Assembly: GCF_002831685.1 (NCBI RefSeq)
Contig: NZ_CP025119.1
Span: 903,001-967,000, forward strand
From: Polaribacter sp. ALD11
GTDB taxonomy: Bacteria; Bacteroidota; Bacteroidia; Flavobacteriales; Flavobacteriaceae
Reading direction: 5' to 3'
DNA: 64,000 bases
The notes under the pieces were generated by a model. It was not told where the DNA came from, made no database searches, and was given only the letters and a program-made list of their open reading frames with translations. Position numbers and translations under genes: made by a program. Below, piece after piece: positions 34,594 to 62,329 of the stretch. Every line of letters starts with the position of its first letter. Within the stretch, counting starts at the first letter, position 1.

Positions 34594-35802
34594 TTAATCA
34601 ATTAATTCATAAAAATCTCTTTTCCCTATTTTTACTTTCATACCATCCTTTAGTAAAATCTCAGCATAAACCTCTTTGTTTTTTATGGTATCAACTTGTA
34701 CGGCCCCACTTTCAATTAACCTTCTAAGAGCAGATTTAGAGAGTCCTTTTTTAAGATGAACGCATAAATCTATTAAACTAATTGCATTATTTTTATGTTG
34801 AGTATTTTTAATTAAAACAGCTTCAAATTCTTTTTCTTCAAATTTTTTACTTTGAAATTGGTTGATAAAGTATTCTTCTGCTTCTTGCGCTTGATTCTTG
34901 TTATGGTATTGGGTAATAATGTTTTTAGCAATTAGTTTTTTTATTTCCATTGGATTCTCTCCGCTAGCTAATCTATTTTTAATACCTTCTTTTTTACTTA
35001 AAGAAAAGTCCGTTGTTAACTGTAAGAACTCTTCTAGCAAACTATCTGGAATTGACATTGTTTTTCCAAACATTTCATTTGCTTCATCTGTAATCCCTAT
35101 AATATTGTGTAACGACTTACTCATTTTCTCTTTACCATCAAGCCCTTTTAATAACGGCATACACATTACTATTTGCGGACTCATTTCAAAAGTTTCTTGT
35201 AATTTTCTACCCATTGTACAATTAAAAAGTTGGTCTGTACCTCCCATTTCAATATCTGCTTTTATTTCTACAGAATCAAATCCTTGAAGTATCGGGTATA
35301 CTAATTCATGCATTGCAATTGGCGTATTTTCTGTAAACCTTTTATTAAAGTCGTTTCTATGCATTAATTGAGCAACAGTAACCTTAGATAAAATTTGAAT
35401 CACTTCTGTAAATGATAGTTTGTCTAACCATTCTGAGTTAAATACGATTTTAACCTTATCAACATCTATAACTTTAGATAATTGATTAATGTACGTCTCT
35501 GCATTATGCTGCACCTCCTCTAGAGATAATGGTTTTCTACTTTTGTTTTTTCCTGTAGGATCACCTATTCGAGCAGTAAAATTTCCAACTAGAATAACAA
35601 TCTGATGACCTAGATTTTGAAACTCTTTTAATTTCTTTAAAACAACAGCGTGTCCCAAATGTAAATCTGGTGCAGTCGGATCAAAACCAAGCTTAATTAT
35701 TAGTTTTCTGTTCTCTTTTTTAGCTAGTTCTAACTTTTCTTCTAGTCCATTTTGAGGAAGAATAATTTCTACATTCTCTTTTAATCTATTAATTGTTTCC
35801 AT
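34594..35802 (-). CDS. tyrS: Tyrosyl-tRNA synthetase
   Basis: 402 residues, class I synthetase of the TyrZ-like short type: FDPTAPDLHLGHAVVLKKL (HIGH motif variant HLGH), GGTDQLFNCTMGR, EKMSKSLHN (KMSKS), and a C-terminal S4 RNA-binding domain (LSKSALRRLIESGAVQVD). It charges tRNA-Tyr. A terminator ends only about 15 nt before the ATG and is preceded by a Tyr-codon-rich leader frame and a strong promoter, so its expression is almost certainly controlled by attenuation. Confidence 0.97.
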   Translation of the reverse strand: METINRLKENVEIILPQNGLEEKLELAKKENRKLIIKLGFDPTAPDLHLGHAVVLKKLKEFQNLGHQIVILVGNFTARIGDPTGKNKSRKPLSLEEVQHNAETYINQLSKVIDVDKVKIVFNSEWLDKLSFTEVIQILSKVTVAQLMHRNDFNKRFTENTPIAMHELVYPILQGFDSVEIKADIEMGGTDQLFNCTMGRKLQETFEMSPQIVMCMPLLKGLDGKEKMSKSLHNIIGITDEANEMFGKTMSIPDSLLEEFLQLTTDFSLSKKEGIKNRLASGENPMEIKKLIAKNIITQYHNKNQAQEAEEYFINQFQSKKFEEKEFEAVLIKNTQHKNNAISLIDLCVHLKKGLSKSALRRLIESGAVQVDTIKNKEVYAEILLKDGMKVKIGKRDFYELID

Positions 35803-35814
35803 TTTTTTTTAAAT

Positions 35815-35847
35815 AAAAAAAAGCCCGAGCAAATGCTCGGGCTTTTT
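35815..35847 (-). terminator. Attenuator terminator in the tyrS leader
   Basis: On the minus strand AAAAAGCCCGAGC / GCTCGGGCTTTTT forms a perfect 13-bp stem with an ATTT loop, followed by further T. The 5' arm (CCGAGCA, 35840-35834) is also complementary over 7 bp to TGCTCGG (35913-35907) inside the leader frame, giving a mutually exclusive antiterminator. Confidence 0.85.
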
Positions 35848-35873
35848 AGTTATGTTATATTTTTATTTTATTA

Positions 35874-35978
35874 TCAGATTTTACTTGAAGTATATACATA
35901 GCCATTCCGAGCAGTTATTATTTGATAATAATACGTGCTAAAAAAAGGAAGGCGTAATATGTTGTTTAATCTTTTCAT
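35874..35978 (-). CDS. Tyr-rich leader peptide controlling tyrS
   Basis: A 34-codon frame beginning ATG AAA AGA TTA and ending in TGA TAA. Residues 12-18 read FFSTYYY, with three consecutive TAT codons; two further Tyr follow at 27 and 29 (GYVY). The Tyr codons sit in the left arm of a hairpin (AGCA-TATTATT with AATAATA-TGCT, 35939-35910), whose right arm holds the antiterminator segment. Stalling at scarce Tyr-tRNA would break this hairpin, free TGCTCGG and prevent termination. Too short for routine gene calling. Confidence 0.82.
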   Translation of the reverse strand: MKRLNNILRLPFFSTYYYQIITARNGYVYTSSKI

Positions 35979-35986
35979 TTCTAGTG

Positions 35987-36017
35987 CAAATATATTTTTA
36001 AATATTTTAATGTGCAA
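35987..36017 (-). promoter_or_regulatory. Promoter of the tyrS leader transcript
   Basis: On the minus strand TTG (36017-36015), a 20-nt spacer and TATATTTG (35994-35987): the full -33/-7 Bacteroidetes pattern. Predicted start near 35981, two to four nt before the leader ATG, so the leader is read from an almost leaderless message. Confidence 0.75.
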
Positions 36018-36229
36018 TTTTCTATACATGTTTAAAATTTTCGTACAAAAATTGTAAACTAAAAATCTTTTCTAAACTTATCTGTTGTTTGCAAATAAGT
36101 TTTCTTAAAAATTTAGAAATCGTATCAAATGATCTCATTAAGGGAGCGCTCCATTTTAAAACAAAATATATTTTTATTTCAGTAATATTCCAAATAACAA
36201 TCGTTAGAATTCATCAACTTTAAAAAGCA

Positions 36230-37067: not shown

Positions 37068-37385
37068 CTAATTTTCTTCTTTCATAAATTCATCAATCTT
37101 TTTTTCTTCCCAATCTTTACCAAATAAATTAGGGTATCCAAAGGTCTTAATTCCGTGAAGTGCTAAAAATATTCCCCAAATAAACCAAATAGGCAAATAG
37201 GTGTTTTCTCCTCCATTAAACTGATTGCTAACAATAAAATCTCCGAAGAGTTTAAAGGAAAAGTTCCACACAAATGCTAAAAACAAATTTACCAAAATAT
37301 ATGCAACCACATGTTTATAGAATTTCTTAATTTCTTCTACTCGGTGTCTGGCTCTAATTAATTTCTTATTCTCTTGGTTTTCCAT
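37068..37385 (-). CDS. 2TM domain protein 4 of the LytS/LytT locus
   Basis: 105 residues: a basic helix (RARHRVEEIKKFYKHVVAY), two membrane segments (ILVNLFLAFVWNFSF, LPIWFIWGIFLALHGI) and the closing signature DWEEKKIDEFM. This is the 2TM (pfam13239-type) unit repeated five times in the operon. Function unknown; association with LytTR two-component systems in flavobacteria suggests signal sensing or modulation. Confidence 0.82.
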   Translation of the reverse strand: MENQENKKLIRARHRVEEIKKFYKHVVAYILVNLFLAFVWNFSFKLFGDFIVSNQFNGGENTYLPIWFIWGIFLALHGIKTFGYPNLFGKDWEEKKIDEFMKEEN

Positions 37386-37389
37386 CTCT

Positions 37390-37725
37390 TTAAAATTTCC
37401 TGATTTTTTCGTCCTCTTTGTCCATCAACTCTTTAATTTTCTTTTCTTCCCAATCACTTCCTAAACCTAAAGATTTAAATCCGAAAACGCCTAACCAATG
37501 AAAAAACATTCCGATTCCCCAAAAAAGCCATGTAGAGTATACACCAAAATTAGAAAGAGTATCTTTAAAATTATCTCCGCTTTTTGTTAATCCAAAAATA
37601 ATAACACCGCTTATAAAAATGTTTACCAATATATAAACCATAAAGTGAACATAAAACCCTTTAATGGCTTTTACTCTCTTTTTTGCTCTTATAAAACTAG
37701 CTTCTTGTGTATAATCTTGTTCCAT
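37390..37725 (-). CDS. 2TM domain protein 3 of the LytS/LytT locus
   Basis: 111 residues, same build: RAKKRVKAIKGFYVHFMVY, two membrane segments (ILVNIFISGVIIFGL, WLFWGIGMFFHWLGVFGF) and DWEEKKIKELMDKEDEK. Four-base spacer to the next unit. Paralogue of the neighbouring 2TM genes; function unknown. Confidence 0.82.
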   Translation of the reverse strand: MEQDYTQEASFIRAKKRVKAIKGFYVHFMVYILVNIFISGVIIFGLTKSGDNFKDTLSNFGVYSTWLFWGIGMFFHWLGVFGFKSLGLGSDWEEKKIKELMDKEDEKIRKF

Positions 37726-37729
37726 GTTC

Positions 37730-38017
37730 TTATTTCTTTTCGTTCATAAACTCTTTAATTTTCTTTTCCTCCCAGTTTTTTCCAATTCCTATTAAATTGA
37801 ATCCGAAAACCGTTAACCAGTGAATAAAAAGACCTGTTCCCCAACCAAAAGCAGAAAACCAAAACCAATGAAAATGTGGTTCGAACTTTAAGTTAACAAA
37901 AATAATAACAGGTATAACAATACAATAAATAGTTAAATGTGTGTAAAACCCTTTAATATCTTTTACTCTTTTTTGAGCTTTAAAGTAGCGTTGTTTTTGT
38001 GTAAAATCTGATTCCAT
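37730..38017 (-). CDS. 2TM domain protein 2 of the LytS/LytT locus
   Basis: 95 residues: KAQKRVKDIKGFYTHLTIY, two membrane segments (IVIPVIIFVNLKF, FWFSAFGWGTGLFIHWLTVFGF) and NWEEKKIKEFMNEKK. It is the unit most similar to the one fused to the kinase (both have HFHWFWF / GFHWFWF before the second segment), pointing to local duplication. Confidence 0.82.
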   Translation of the reverse strand: MESDFTQKQRYFKAQKRVKDIKGFYTHLTIYCIVIPVIIFVNLKFEPHFHWFWFSAFGWGTGLFIHWLTVFGFNLIGIGKNWEEKKIKEFMNEKK

Positions 38018-38019
38018 TT

Positions 38020-38343
38020 TTATCTAATATTATTTTGTTCGTCCATATATTTCTGAATCTTTCTCTCCTCCCAGTCTTTATTCATAAATAAACTGAGTCC
38101 GAAAGTATTCAATGCCTGAAAAACAATTCCGATTCCCCAAAACAACCAAATTTTATAATTATGATAATCTGAAAAAGCTTCATAAAAAGTGTCTCCGTCA
38201 TTTATATCTCCAGCAATAAATATAGCACTCAAAAAAATATTTATAATAACATACGTTGCCAGATGTTTATAGAACTTGCTAATTTTTTCAACTCGTTTTT
38301 TTGCTAAAATAAATTGCTGTTCTTGTGTTCTGTTCGTTTCCAT
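38020..38343 (-). CDS. 2TM domain protein 1 of the LytS/LytT locus
   Basis: 107 residues: LAKKRVEKISKFYKHLATY, two membrane segments (VIINIFLSAIFIAG, WLFWGIGIVFQALNTFGLSLF) and DWEERKIQKYMDEQ. Its ATG shares one base with the kinase stop, so translation is likely coupled. Confidence 0.82.
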   Translation of the reverse strand: METNRTQEQQFILAKKRVEKISKFYKHLATYVIINIFLSAIFIAGDINDGDTFYEAFSDYHNYKIWLFWGIGIVFQALNTFGLSLFMNKDWEERKIQKYMDEQNNIR

Positions 38344-39713
38344 TATCTGTACTTTTTTTGCTGATTCTCTTTGTCCATTAAATCTTTAATCTTTCTGTCT
38401 TCCCAATTACTTCCTAAGAAAATATTGTAATTATTTACTTCTAAAAAGTGAAAAGTTAAGCCCATTCCCCACCCGAAGATTGGAAACCAAAACCAATGAA
38501 AACCTGGTGAAAATCTTAAATTTATGAATATTAAAAATGGAATTACTAAACAATAAGAAGCTAAATTCTGATAGAACTCTTTTAGTTTCTCTACTTTTTC
38601 TACTGCTTTTACATATTTACTATTTTCTAAATCGTCTGTGTACATCGTGTTGTTCATTTTATATAGGAGTGGTAAACTCACCTTAAAAGTTTTGTTATTA
38701 TTTTCTATTTTCACTCCTTTTTGAGTGATCAATCCATATCTATCAGCAATATTTTGCAAACCAACTTTTGTGCTTTTTCCTATTGCTTCTTTAGGGTTGA
38801 TGTTATTTTCTATAATTAAATAATTAGCTTCTTCATAAATATTTATGGTTAAGGGTTTAGAAGTAGAAACTACATTGTGTTTTACTGCATTTTCTAATAA
38901 AAGCTGTAATGATAATGGCACAATTTTTAATTCATTATTACTTATTTCATCAGGAATGTTAAATTGAACGGCATCTTCAAAACGCATTCCTAACAATTCC
39001 ATATACGTTTTTGCAAACTTTAATTCTTCTTCAATTGGTACTAAATCTTTATTTCTTTGCTCTAAAACATATCGATAAACCTTAGAGAGCTTTGTTGTAA
39101 ACCTTTCTGCTTGATGCGGATTTTCGCCAATTAAACTCGTTAATACATTTAAACTATTGAATAAAAAATGTGGATCTAATTGATTTTTTAAAGATTCGAA
39201 CTTGGCTGTTTCTGTTTTTGCTACAATCTGCTGCTGCGTAGTTTCTTGCGTCATTGCAGCTTTCCAGTTGATCATAAATCCTTTTGCATGAAAAAAAGTT
39301 GCCACTCCTAAAGAAAAAATAATGGCTATTACATGCACCCAAACTAAGTATCCTTTAAAAAAGGTATCAAAATTATGTCCAAAAATTAAGATGTATTGTA
39401 TATAATGAATTATTAAAACTGCAATAACGGTATACAAAACTGTAGCTACAGCACCAACCCAGACTCTTTTATTAGTTTCGTGAACCCAATCCCATTTGGT
39501 GTTTAGGTATTCATTAATTATTCCATTCCCTAACCCTAAAGTAAAAGAATACATGCTAGAAATTAAAAGCACCAAAGCCATTCCTTTTATACTAAATTGC
39601 TGATTTACAATTATAAAAATAACCCCTAGAATTACAGTAAGTTTTAAACAAACTATAAATTCGTTTCTTATTTTTTTTAAAATAATAGCGTTTGATGTTT
39701 TCATTTTCGACAT
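38343..39713 (-). CDS. LytS-like sensor histidine kinase fused to a C-terminal 2TM domain
   Basis: 456 residues. Four N-terminal membrane segments (20-165) replace a periplasmic sensor; then the His_kinase block with LDPHFLFNSLNVLTSLIG (phospho-His), the N-box LLENAVKHNV and a minimal ATP lid ending SLPLLYK (about 355). From about 360 a complete 2TM unit follows (KAVEKVEKLKEFYQNLASY ... NWEDRKIKDLMDKENQQ). The junction KMNNTMYTDDLENSKYV looks like a former separate start, so a gene fusion is likely. Signals to the LytTR regulator downstream. Confidence 0.88.
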   Translation of the reverse strand: MSKMKTSNAIILKKIRNEFIVCLKLTVILGVIFIIVNQQFSIKGMALVLLISSMYSFTLGLGNGIINEYLNTKWDWVHETNKRVWVGAVATVLYTVIAVLIIHYIQYILIFGHNFDTFFKGYLVWVHVIAIIFSLGVATFFHAKGFMINWKAAMTQETTQQQIVAKTETAKFESLKNQLDPHFLFNSLNVLTSLIGENPHQAERFTTKLSKVYRYVLEQRNKDLVPIEEELKFAKTYMELLGMRFEDAVQFNIPDEISNNELKIVPLSLQLLLENAVKHNVVSTSKPLTINIYEEANYLIIENNINPKEAIGKSTKVGLQNIADRYGLITQKGVKIENNNKTFKVSLPLLYKMNNTMYTDDLENSKYVKAVEKVEKLKEFYQNLASYCLVIPFLIFINLRFSPGFHWFWFPIFGWGMGLTFHFLEVNNYNIFLGSNWEDRKIKDLMDKENQQKKYR

Positions 39714-43583: not shown

Positions 43584-43661
43584 TCTCAGGGCGATAACCA
43601 AGGATTTATTTTCCAAAGGATTCCTCGTAATTATAATAAGAAGTATGTTGCTTATTATTTA

Positions 43662-43735
43662 CTAGCTCGCGTTAGCGATTGAAACGGCATCCTTTTTTGA
43701 GGTACGAAAAAAAGATATAGTGTAAAGCGCGACCC
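43662..43735 (+). repeat. Dispersed repeat element, copy 1 (argC-proC gap)
   Basis: TAGCTCGCGTTAGCGATTGA continuing with AACGGCATCCTTTTTT ... AAAAAAAGATATAGTGTAAAGCGCGACCC. The same core (GATTG-AA-CATCCTTTTT ... AAAAAGATATA-TG-AAAGC) lies inverted at 62221-62288. I recall this pattern as a frequent intergenic element of flavobacteria. A local hairpin ATAATAAG...CTTATTAT precedes it at about 43633-43658. Confidence 0.7.
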
Positions 43736-43760
43736 TTGGGTAACGCCAAAAAATAAAATT

Positions 43761-62220: not shown

Positions 62221-62288
62221 AGCTATTTCCTGCTTTCCATTATATCTTTTTGTGAAAAACAAAAAGGATGTCATTCCAATCAGGGCTA
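62221..62288 (-). repeat. Dispersed repeat element, copy 2 (inverted)
   Basis: Read on the minus strand: TAGCCCTGATTGGAATGACA, then TCCTTTTTGTTTTTCACAAA, then AAGATATAATGGAAAGCAGG, matching the copy at 43662-43735. It fills most of the prfB-ArsC gap. Confidence 0.7.
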
Positions 62289-62329
62289 AAATTTTTTGCT
62301 AACATATAACAACACTAAAAACATAAAAC

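Follow-up and report, generated by a model that had tools for sequence, protein, structure and literature searches.

A predicted Tyr-codon attenuator, with a selected leader peptide, upstream of an accessory tyrosyl-tRNA synthetase gene in Polaribacter

Organization of the tyrS leader

The window analyzed here is a 64,000-nucleotide stretch of Polaribacter sp. ALD11 DNA (contig NZ_CP025119.1, positions 903,001 to 967,000); positions below are counted from its first letter, and all features of the locus lie on its minus strand. The tyrS gene (34594..35802) encodes a tyrosyl-tRNA synthetase (TyrRS) of 402 amino acids with HLGH and KMSKS signatures, which is an accessory enzyme (see below); its product scores 342.7 bits against TIGR00234, for which the cut-off is 113.8, and also matches PF00579. 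Upstream of it lies a leader open reading frame of 34 codons plus stop (35874..35978; ATG at 35978, stop at 35876-35874; sequence MKRLNNILRLPFFSTYYYQIITARNGYVYTSSKI). Codons 16, 17, 18, 27 and 29 of this frame specify Tyr, with codons 16–18 (UAU UAU UAU) at 35925..35933. An initial annotation, made from the sequence of the window without database searches, had described this Tyr-rich frame, and its length of 34 codons and its five Tyr codons proved correct.

Codons 2–17 of the leader (KRLNNILRLPFFSTYY; 35928..35975) are conserved as peptide and constitute a proposed nascent-chain element. Segment 1 (GCCUUCC, 35947..35953) lies inside the Arg-Leu-Pro codons 9–11. Segment 2 (35901..35913) contains the antiterminator sequence UGCUCGG (35913-35907), extends to GGAAUGGC and is able to pair with segment 1; in the window sequence GCCTTCC of codons 9–11 pairs with GGAATGGC via one bulge. 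Segment 3 (GCCCGAGCA, 35834..35842) is the 5' arm of an intrinsic terminator (35815..35847), which has a 13-bp stem (35847-35818) and a T run to 35815. Both the stem and the T run had been recognized before, but the gap between them and the tyrS ATG (35802) is 12 nt rather than the earlier estimate of about 15. The 231-nt leader folds with a z-score of -4.15, and none of 200 shuffles was equally stable. This stability, together with the recurrence of the arrangement in every locus that was chosen by its TyrRS (below), exceeds what is expected by chance.

The leader is preceded by a Bacteroidota-type promoter (35987..36017) made up of TTG at 36017-36015, 20 nt and then TATATTTG at 35994-35987, as first described. 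Among 82 distinct stretches upstream of the leader in relatives, 74 have a box of the form TAnnTTTG/A whose end lies 4–9 nt from the start codon; seven others have no such box, and in one it is 15 nt away. The strict TAnnTTTG form occurs in 55 of the 82, compared with a mean of 0.9 and a maximum of 4 in shuffles. The flavobacterial promoter has its TAnnTTTG box at -12 to -5 (PMC9723704), so transcription would be expected to start near 35982, which leaves about 4 nt ahead of the leader ATG. Across the relatives the box position implies a 5' untranslated region of 0–5 nt, and thus a nearly leaderless leader mRNA. Ten promoter-like sites were found in a generic sigma-70 scan, fewer than the 16.1 in shuffles, as is expected since the model behind the scan does not cover the Bacteroidota promoter. 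Bacteroidota make little use of Shine-Dalgarno sequences, and the locus would add a nearly leaderless leader mRNA in this phylum.

Linkage of the leader to a second synthetase gene

We examined 84 loci chosen by TyrRS alone, namely the best 80 of 176 relatives in named genomes, the window and three congeneric genomes. A leader ORF and a GG...TTTT terminator tail were present in all 84, and the tail follows all 86 leaders; genera among the best 80 of 176 relatives include Arenibacter, Gelidibacter, Flavobacterium, Chryseobacterium, Aequorivita, Weeksella, Vaginella, Sphingobacterium and Rufibacter. Among the 395 genomes of an order sample, those with a window-type TyrRS (E <= 1e-60) and those with the leader (E <= 1e-11) are the same 22. 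The Fisher P of 3.5e-35 for this co-occurrence overstates independence, because 21 of the 22 carriers fall in one genus and kinship is ignored. Four weak leader matches in the order sample (E 0.004–0.008) look like chance on inspection. In the phylum sample only 3 of 296 genomes gave a leader match with E < 0.01, and in each of them the gene that follows is tyrS. One genome without a window-type tyrS (G840) contains an apparent decayed tyrS leader with a broken or truncated terminator (L193, around locus position 1500, minus strand). Comparison across genomes shows the leader to be obligately linked to window-type tyrS.

A housekeeping TyrRS paralogue of 430 aa, 30% identical to the window TyrRS, is encoded elsewhere in the same genome (G000:C1:2555359-2556204). 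Both enzymes exceed the TIGR00234 cut-off, and no such leader is present in the stretch upstream of the housekeeping gene. All 41 carriers checked (this genome and 40 others) also match the housekeeping type; in G767 the housekeeping-type open frame is only 267 aa. Some TyrRS match is found in 92 of 97 genomes of the genus sample and the window type in only 4, and the genome analyzed here is the only one of 395 in the class sample with a window-type TyrRS (E <= 1e-80). The window tyrS is an accessory, patchily distributed second synthetase gene, a point that the initial annotation overlooked.

The leader and tyrS lie within the 1745 nt (36231 to 34485) that separate a response-regulator gene from a DHH gene. 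At locus L221 (positions 1386-1445) response-regulator and DHH genes are 58 nt apart with neither leader nor tyrS, and at L220 other sequence lies between them. Among the best 80 of 176 relatives and the genus sample, a homologue from Lutibacter and one from Sphingobacterium share 84% and 78% identity with the window TyrRS, but one from its own genus only 72%. This identity pattern and the site that lacks leader and tyrS suggest that leader and gene may have spread horizontally as one unit. Inspection by eye of 16 loci revealed neither conserved operon partners, the neighbors of tyrS being different, nor resistance-type hints among them. Phage and plasmid carriage were considered and set aside: no relative was present in viral_contigs, and the 13 plasmid records that matched were all below 60% identity.

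Conservation of the RNA pairings and of the leader peptide

Pairings and covariation were counted in an alignment of 53 sequences (A2). Pairing reaches 98.6% of cells in the terminator (3:4), which has 44 double-change cells. It reaches 99.7% in the 7-bp antiterminator of TGCTCGG with CCGAGCA (2:3), which had been noticed in the window and is indeed there; the antiterminator has 22 double-change cells. All 86 leaders have Tyr at both codon 16 and codon 17. The initial annotation had predicted that Tyr codons and pairing arms would be conserved in relatives, and the upstream regions bear this out; of the TAT triplet that it singled out, however, the third Tyr codon is kept in only 35 of 86. The antiterminator covariation score of 0.269 (0.183 when shuffled) exceeds all 500 shuffles, while the number of antiterminator pairs having a double change (2) is not above shuffles (223/500). 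Moreover, the 2:3 duplex formed by a sequence's own arms averages -13.3 kcal/mol, versus -12.1 kcal/mol when partners are swapped, and none of 2000 swaps was as stable. Comparison among the aligned relatives, then, shows covariation of terminator and antiterminator. In the Chryseobacterium group a 2-nt shift moves the frame of the antiterminator and turns Ala-Arg into Arg-Ser-Gly with the pairing retained; at that point selection acts on RNA and not on peptide. The consensus fold of A2 yields the terminator only, because the alternative pairings and the terminator exclude one another.

The remaining pairings are less well conserved. The 1:2 duplex averages -8.8 kcal/mol with its own partner and -8.0 kcal/mol when swapped (1/2000), the helix as written is paired in 86.3% of cells versus 84.8% in shuffles, and several sequences lie above -6 kcal/mol. 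Since this is close to the shuffled level, 1:2 is the least secure element and is weak in some clades. Thus, of the four classical segments claimed at the outset, 2:3 and 3:4 stand firmly and the 1:2 pairing is only moderately conserved. The hairpin drawn over the Tyr codons can be found in the window (arms 35939-35927 and 35922-35910, 85% complementary), but it was dropped as a conserved part because Chryseobacterium-type rows of A2 do not have its 3' side.

Between the end of the Tyr17 codon and the antiterminator lie 15 nt in 27 of the 53 sequences, 13 nt in another 25 and 12 nt in the remaining one; the spacing from antiterminator to terminator drifts between 49 and 72 nt, and the leader is 24–37 aa long. 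A ribosome with Tyr16 or Tyr17 in its P site would cover the RNA to about nt 62–65. Its front would therefore lie just short of segment 2, and the spacing fits a stalled ribosome. We also folded each RNA as it would be before segment 4 is made, with the nucleotides up to a given position blocked as by a ribosome. A block to nt 62 or 65 leaves 2:3 above 0.5 in 53 of 53 sequences, compared with 25 of 53 when unblocked. A block of nt 1–40 only is nearly as effective (52 of 53), so this test does not single out the Tyr codons. With the ribosome at the stop codon, mean 2:3 is 0.43 and mean 1:2 is 0.32; because 2:3 persists, equilibrium folding explains the off state poorly.

Codon changes in the leader were counted by parsimony on a TyrRS tree of 86 loci. 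The conserved peptide in the region of codons 2–17 is MKxLNxILRLPFFSxYY. Codons 2–15 have undergone 147 synonymous and 74 nonsynonymous changes (omega 0.12); the corresponding counts are 38 and 4 for codons 9–11 (omega 0.05), 26 and 12 for codons 12–14 (omega 0.06), and 10 and 0 for codons 16–17. No amino-acid change has occurred at codons 8, 11, 16 or 17, and codons 3 and 6 are freely variable. Past this point omega is 0.98/0.83 for codons 18–22 and 0.70/0.80 for codons 25–30 (in two frame groups), and the second half of the peptide is free in sequence and length. Pairwise counts give pN 0.07 and pS 0.58 for codons 4–13, a pS no lower than the range of 0.45–0.61 in codons 18–30, and ratios of 0.86 for codons 18–22 and 1.11 for codons 25–30. 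At TyrRS identities of 60–70%, leader residues 2–17, at 81% identity, surpass the enzyme, and residues 18–30 are 13% identical (ungapped). In clades in which 1:2 is nearly lost (such as L019, L025, L031, L058 and L079; -3.6 to -5.5 kcal/mol), Arg-Leu-Pro is retained. All 86 leaders have UAU as codon 16, which has undergone no synonymous change, while codon 17 has undergone 10, as if decoding of codon 16 were the sensed step. The N-terminal part of the leader peptide is thus itself under selection that ends at Tyr17, which a plain trp-type attenuator would not need. The constraint ceases at the very codon on which the ribosome has to halt if the antiterminator is to form, as predicted by an arrest-like chain and not by a disposable leader peptide; peptide conservation does not prove arrest.

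The His leaders of the same genus served as a control. A classical His leader (MTFIQFHHHHFYNCNQAI) precedes hisG in the ALD11 genome (L153, G000:C1 near 558694), and 29 of 30 hisG loci (L142-L171, this genome included) have a leader of the form M-x-F-I-Q-x-HHHH with a terminator. In 22 such leaders from one genus Phe-Ile-Gln shows 0 synonymous and 3 nonsynonymous changes, i.e. conservation at the nucleotide level, and codons 2 and 6 vary. In these 22, omega is 0.28 for codons 2–6 and 0.13 for the His codons, and it is 0.40 beyond the His run. Because these values are also below 1 and the sample is small and from a single genus, what sets the tyrS leader apart is mainly the pattern of synonymous changes and the sharpness of its boundary.

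A model for tyrS attenuation and its relatives

From the leader, Tyr codons, covarying 2:3 and 3:4 helices, fixed spacing, peptide selection and second TyrRS seen by comparison, we infer a stall, a regulatory outcome, a signal and a role of the nascent chain, as follows. The near-leaderless transcript would begin at the leader ATG. With Tyr-tRNA in good supply, the ribosome would pass Tyr16-Tyr17, and segment 2 would be barred from segment 3 either by segment 1 pairing or by the ribosome itself; the terminator (3:4) would then form and tyrS would remain untranscribed. When Tyr-tRNA is short, through tyrosine starvation or through failure or inhibition of the housekeeping TyrRS, a ribosome holding the conserved chain MKxLNxILRLPFFSx(Y) would halt with UAU16 or UAY17 in the A site. 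With its front edge just before segment 2 and segment 1 covered, the halted ribosome would allow 2:3 to pair, RNA polymerase would read through, and the spare TyrRS would be produced. At its core this model has an accessory TyrRS governed by ribosome-mediated attenuation at Tyr codons, which in our judgment is very likely. The trp-type tyrosine attenuator originally proposed has the same core and holds with corrections, among them that tyrS is not the sole TyrRS gene and that the N-terminal peptide is selected as well. That the nascent chain adds help to stalling is probable on the pattern of codon substitution, and the full proposal, in which the attenuator governs a horizontally spread accessory tyrS and the leader peptide aids the stall, is somewhat likely. 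Whether an arrest-type chain (LNxILRLPFFSx) would make UAU-UAY decoding highly sensitive to Tyr-tRNA, within a self-contained mobile cassette of promoter, arrest-assisted attenuator and spare TyrRS that would rescue cells with a failed or inhibited housekeeping TyrRS, seems to us about evenly balanced.

In textbook accounts of amino-acid attenuators nothing but codons and RNA matters. The leader could be a plain trp-type attenuator, in which the stall results from Tyr-tRNA shortage alone and the peptide is irrelevant, having been conserved through RNA or codon constraints. Every pairing that such a device requires is present, the fixed UAU at codon 16 next to 10 synonymous changes at codon 17 fits decoding as the sensed step, and two tandem control codons are enough in uORFC-8-2 upstream of cysS (PMC8632094). 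We nevertheless consider it rather unlikely, since codons 4–14 change synonymously while their amino acids stay (see pS and pN for codons 4–13, above), and an RNA constraint would fix wobble bases too, as in Phe-Ile-Gln of the His leader. The conserved chain with its fixed end, where omega goes from near 0.1 to near 1, would also suit a TnaC- or Erm-like peptide, with a small drug or metabolite in the ribosome, rather than a lack of Tyr-tRNA, triggering the Tyr-Tyr stall, and known arrest peptides of this kind are under small-molecule control. But the regulated gene makes Tyr-tRNA, which is then the obvious signal, and both invariant final residues are Tyr, so we regard this as improbable. Most improbable of all is a constitutive arrangement without attenuation, in which the terminator closes an upstream transcript or the ORF encodes a stable microprotein. 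Intergenic intrinsic terminators are common and the first half of the ORF is conserved as protein, but the promoter box that 74 of 82 stretches have close in front of the leader, the covariation of antiterminator with terminator and the freely varying second half of the peptide (24–37 aa) all speak against it.

The predicted attenuator resembles the trp, his, leu, thr and phe leaders (Rfam Trp_leader and His_leader) in its control-codon ORF, its competing antiterminator and terminator and its linked gene. It differs from attenuators of amino-acid operons in that its target is an accessory TyrRS, it is nearly leaderless and the first half of its peptide is conserved as peptide. Vecchione and Sello reportedly found in 2010 that an auxiliary, indolmycin-resistant TrpRS of Streptomyces is under ribosome-mediated attenuation; there, too, an auxiliary synthetase is joined to a leader attenuator, but the amino acid is Trp, the organisms are Actinobacteria, and the window TyrRS has no known drug or resistance phenotype. 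With TnaC, SecM and Erm leaders the tyrS leader shares a selected nascent chain that ends at a fixed codon, arrest being a proposal here, and to our knowledge its peptide resembles none of their arrest sequences.

Like the tyrS leader, uORFC-8-2 of Rhodobacterales precedes an aminoacyl-tRNA synthetase gene (cysS) and has tandem cognate codons (Cys 14-15; here Tyr 16-17) and a terminator (PMC8632094); the tyrS leader differs from it in phylum, amino acid and sequence. Bacillus subtilis TyrZ, which is under T box and MarR control (PMC9437257), is likewise a second, specialized TyrRS under attenuation, but by a T-box riboswitch and not a leader peptide. His leaders of hisS paralogues are described in bacilli (PMC2965389), and for Flavobacterium psychrophilum there is mention both of leader peptides that attenuate amino-acid operons from upstream and of structured 5' UTRs in the mRNAs of aminoacyl-tRNA synthetases (PMC9723704). 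Within the full-text literature searched, in which subscription journals are thinly represented and Table S7 of PMC9723704, which may list a tyrS leader, is not included, we found no tyrS leader-peptide attenuator and no such peptide. As a correction to the suggestion that a trp-type attenuator of tyrS is non-standard in Bacteroidetes, attenuation of amino-acid operons by leader peptides was already on record for a flavobacterium (PMC9723704). The locus would add to the Bacteroidota an accessory TyrRS under leader-peptide control, which could serve as a backup induced when tyrosine is short or TyrRS is inhibited. Because strong selection on the peptide stops precisely at the second Tyr codon, help from the nascent chain in attenuation is an idea open to direct test.

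At the leader no match to an Rfam family attains the gathering score, which sets it apart from the Rfam leader families, and a T-box riboswitch was rejected, with no match at gathering and none among 46 matches with E <= 1 in 35780-36040. Elsewhere in the window two Flavo-1 RNAs (RF01705) are above the gathering score, at 62222-62291 (minus strand) and 43660-43738 (plus strand). Finally, window positions 37068-39713 contain several small proteins of about 95–111 aa in tandem that are similar by eye, and a sensor-like protein (38343-39713) apparently carries a further copy as a C-terminal fusion.
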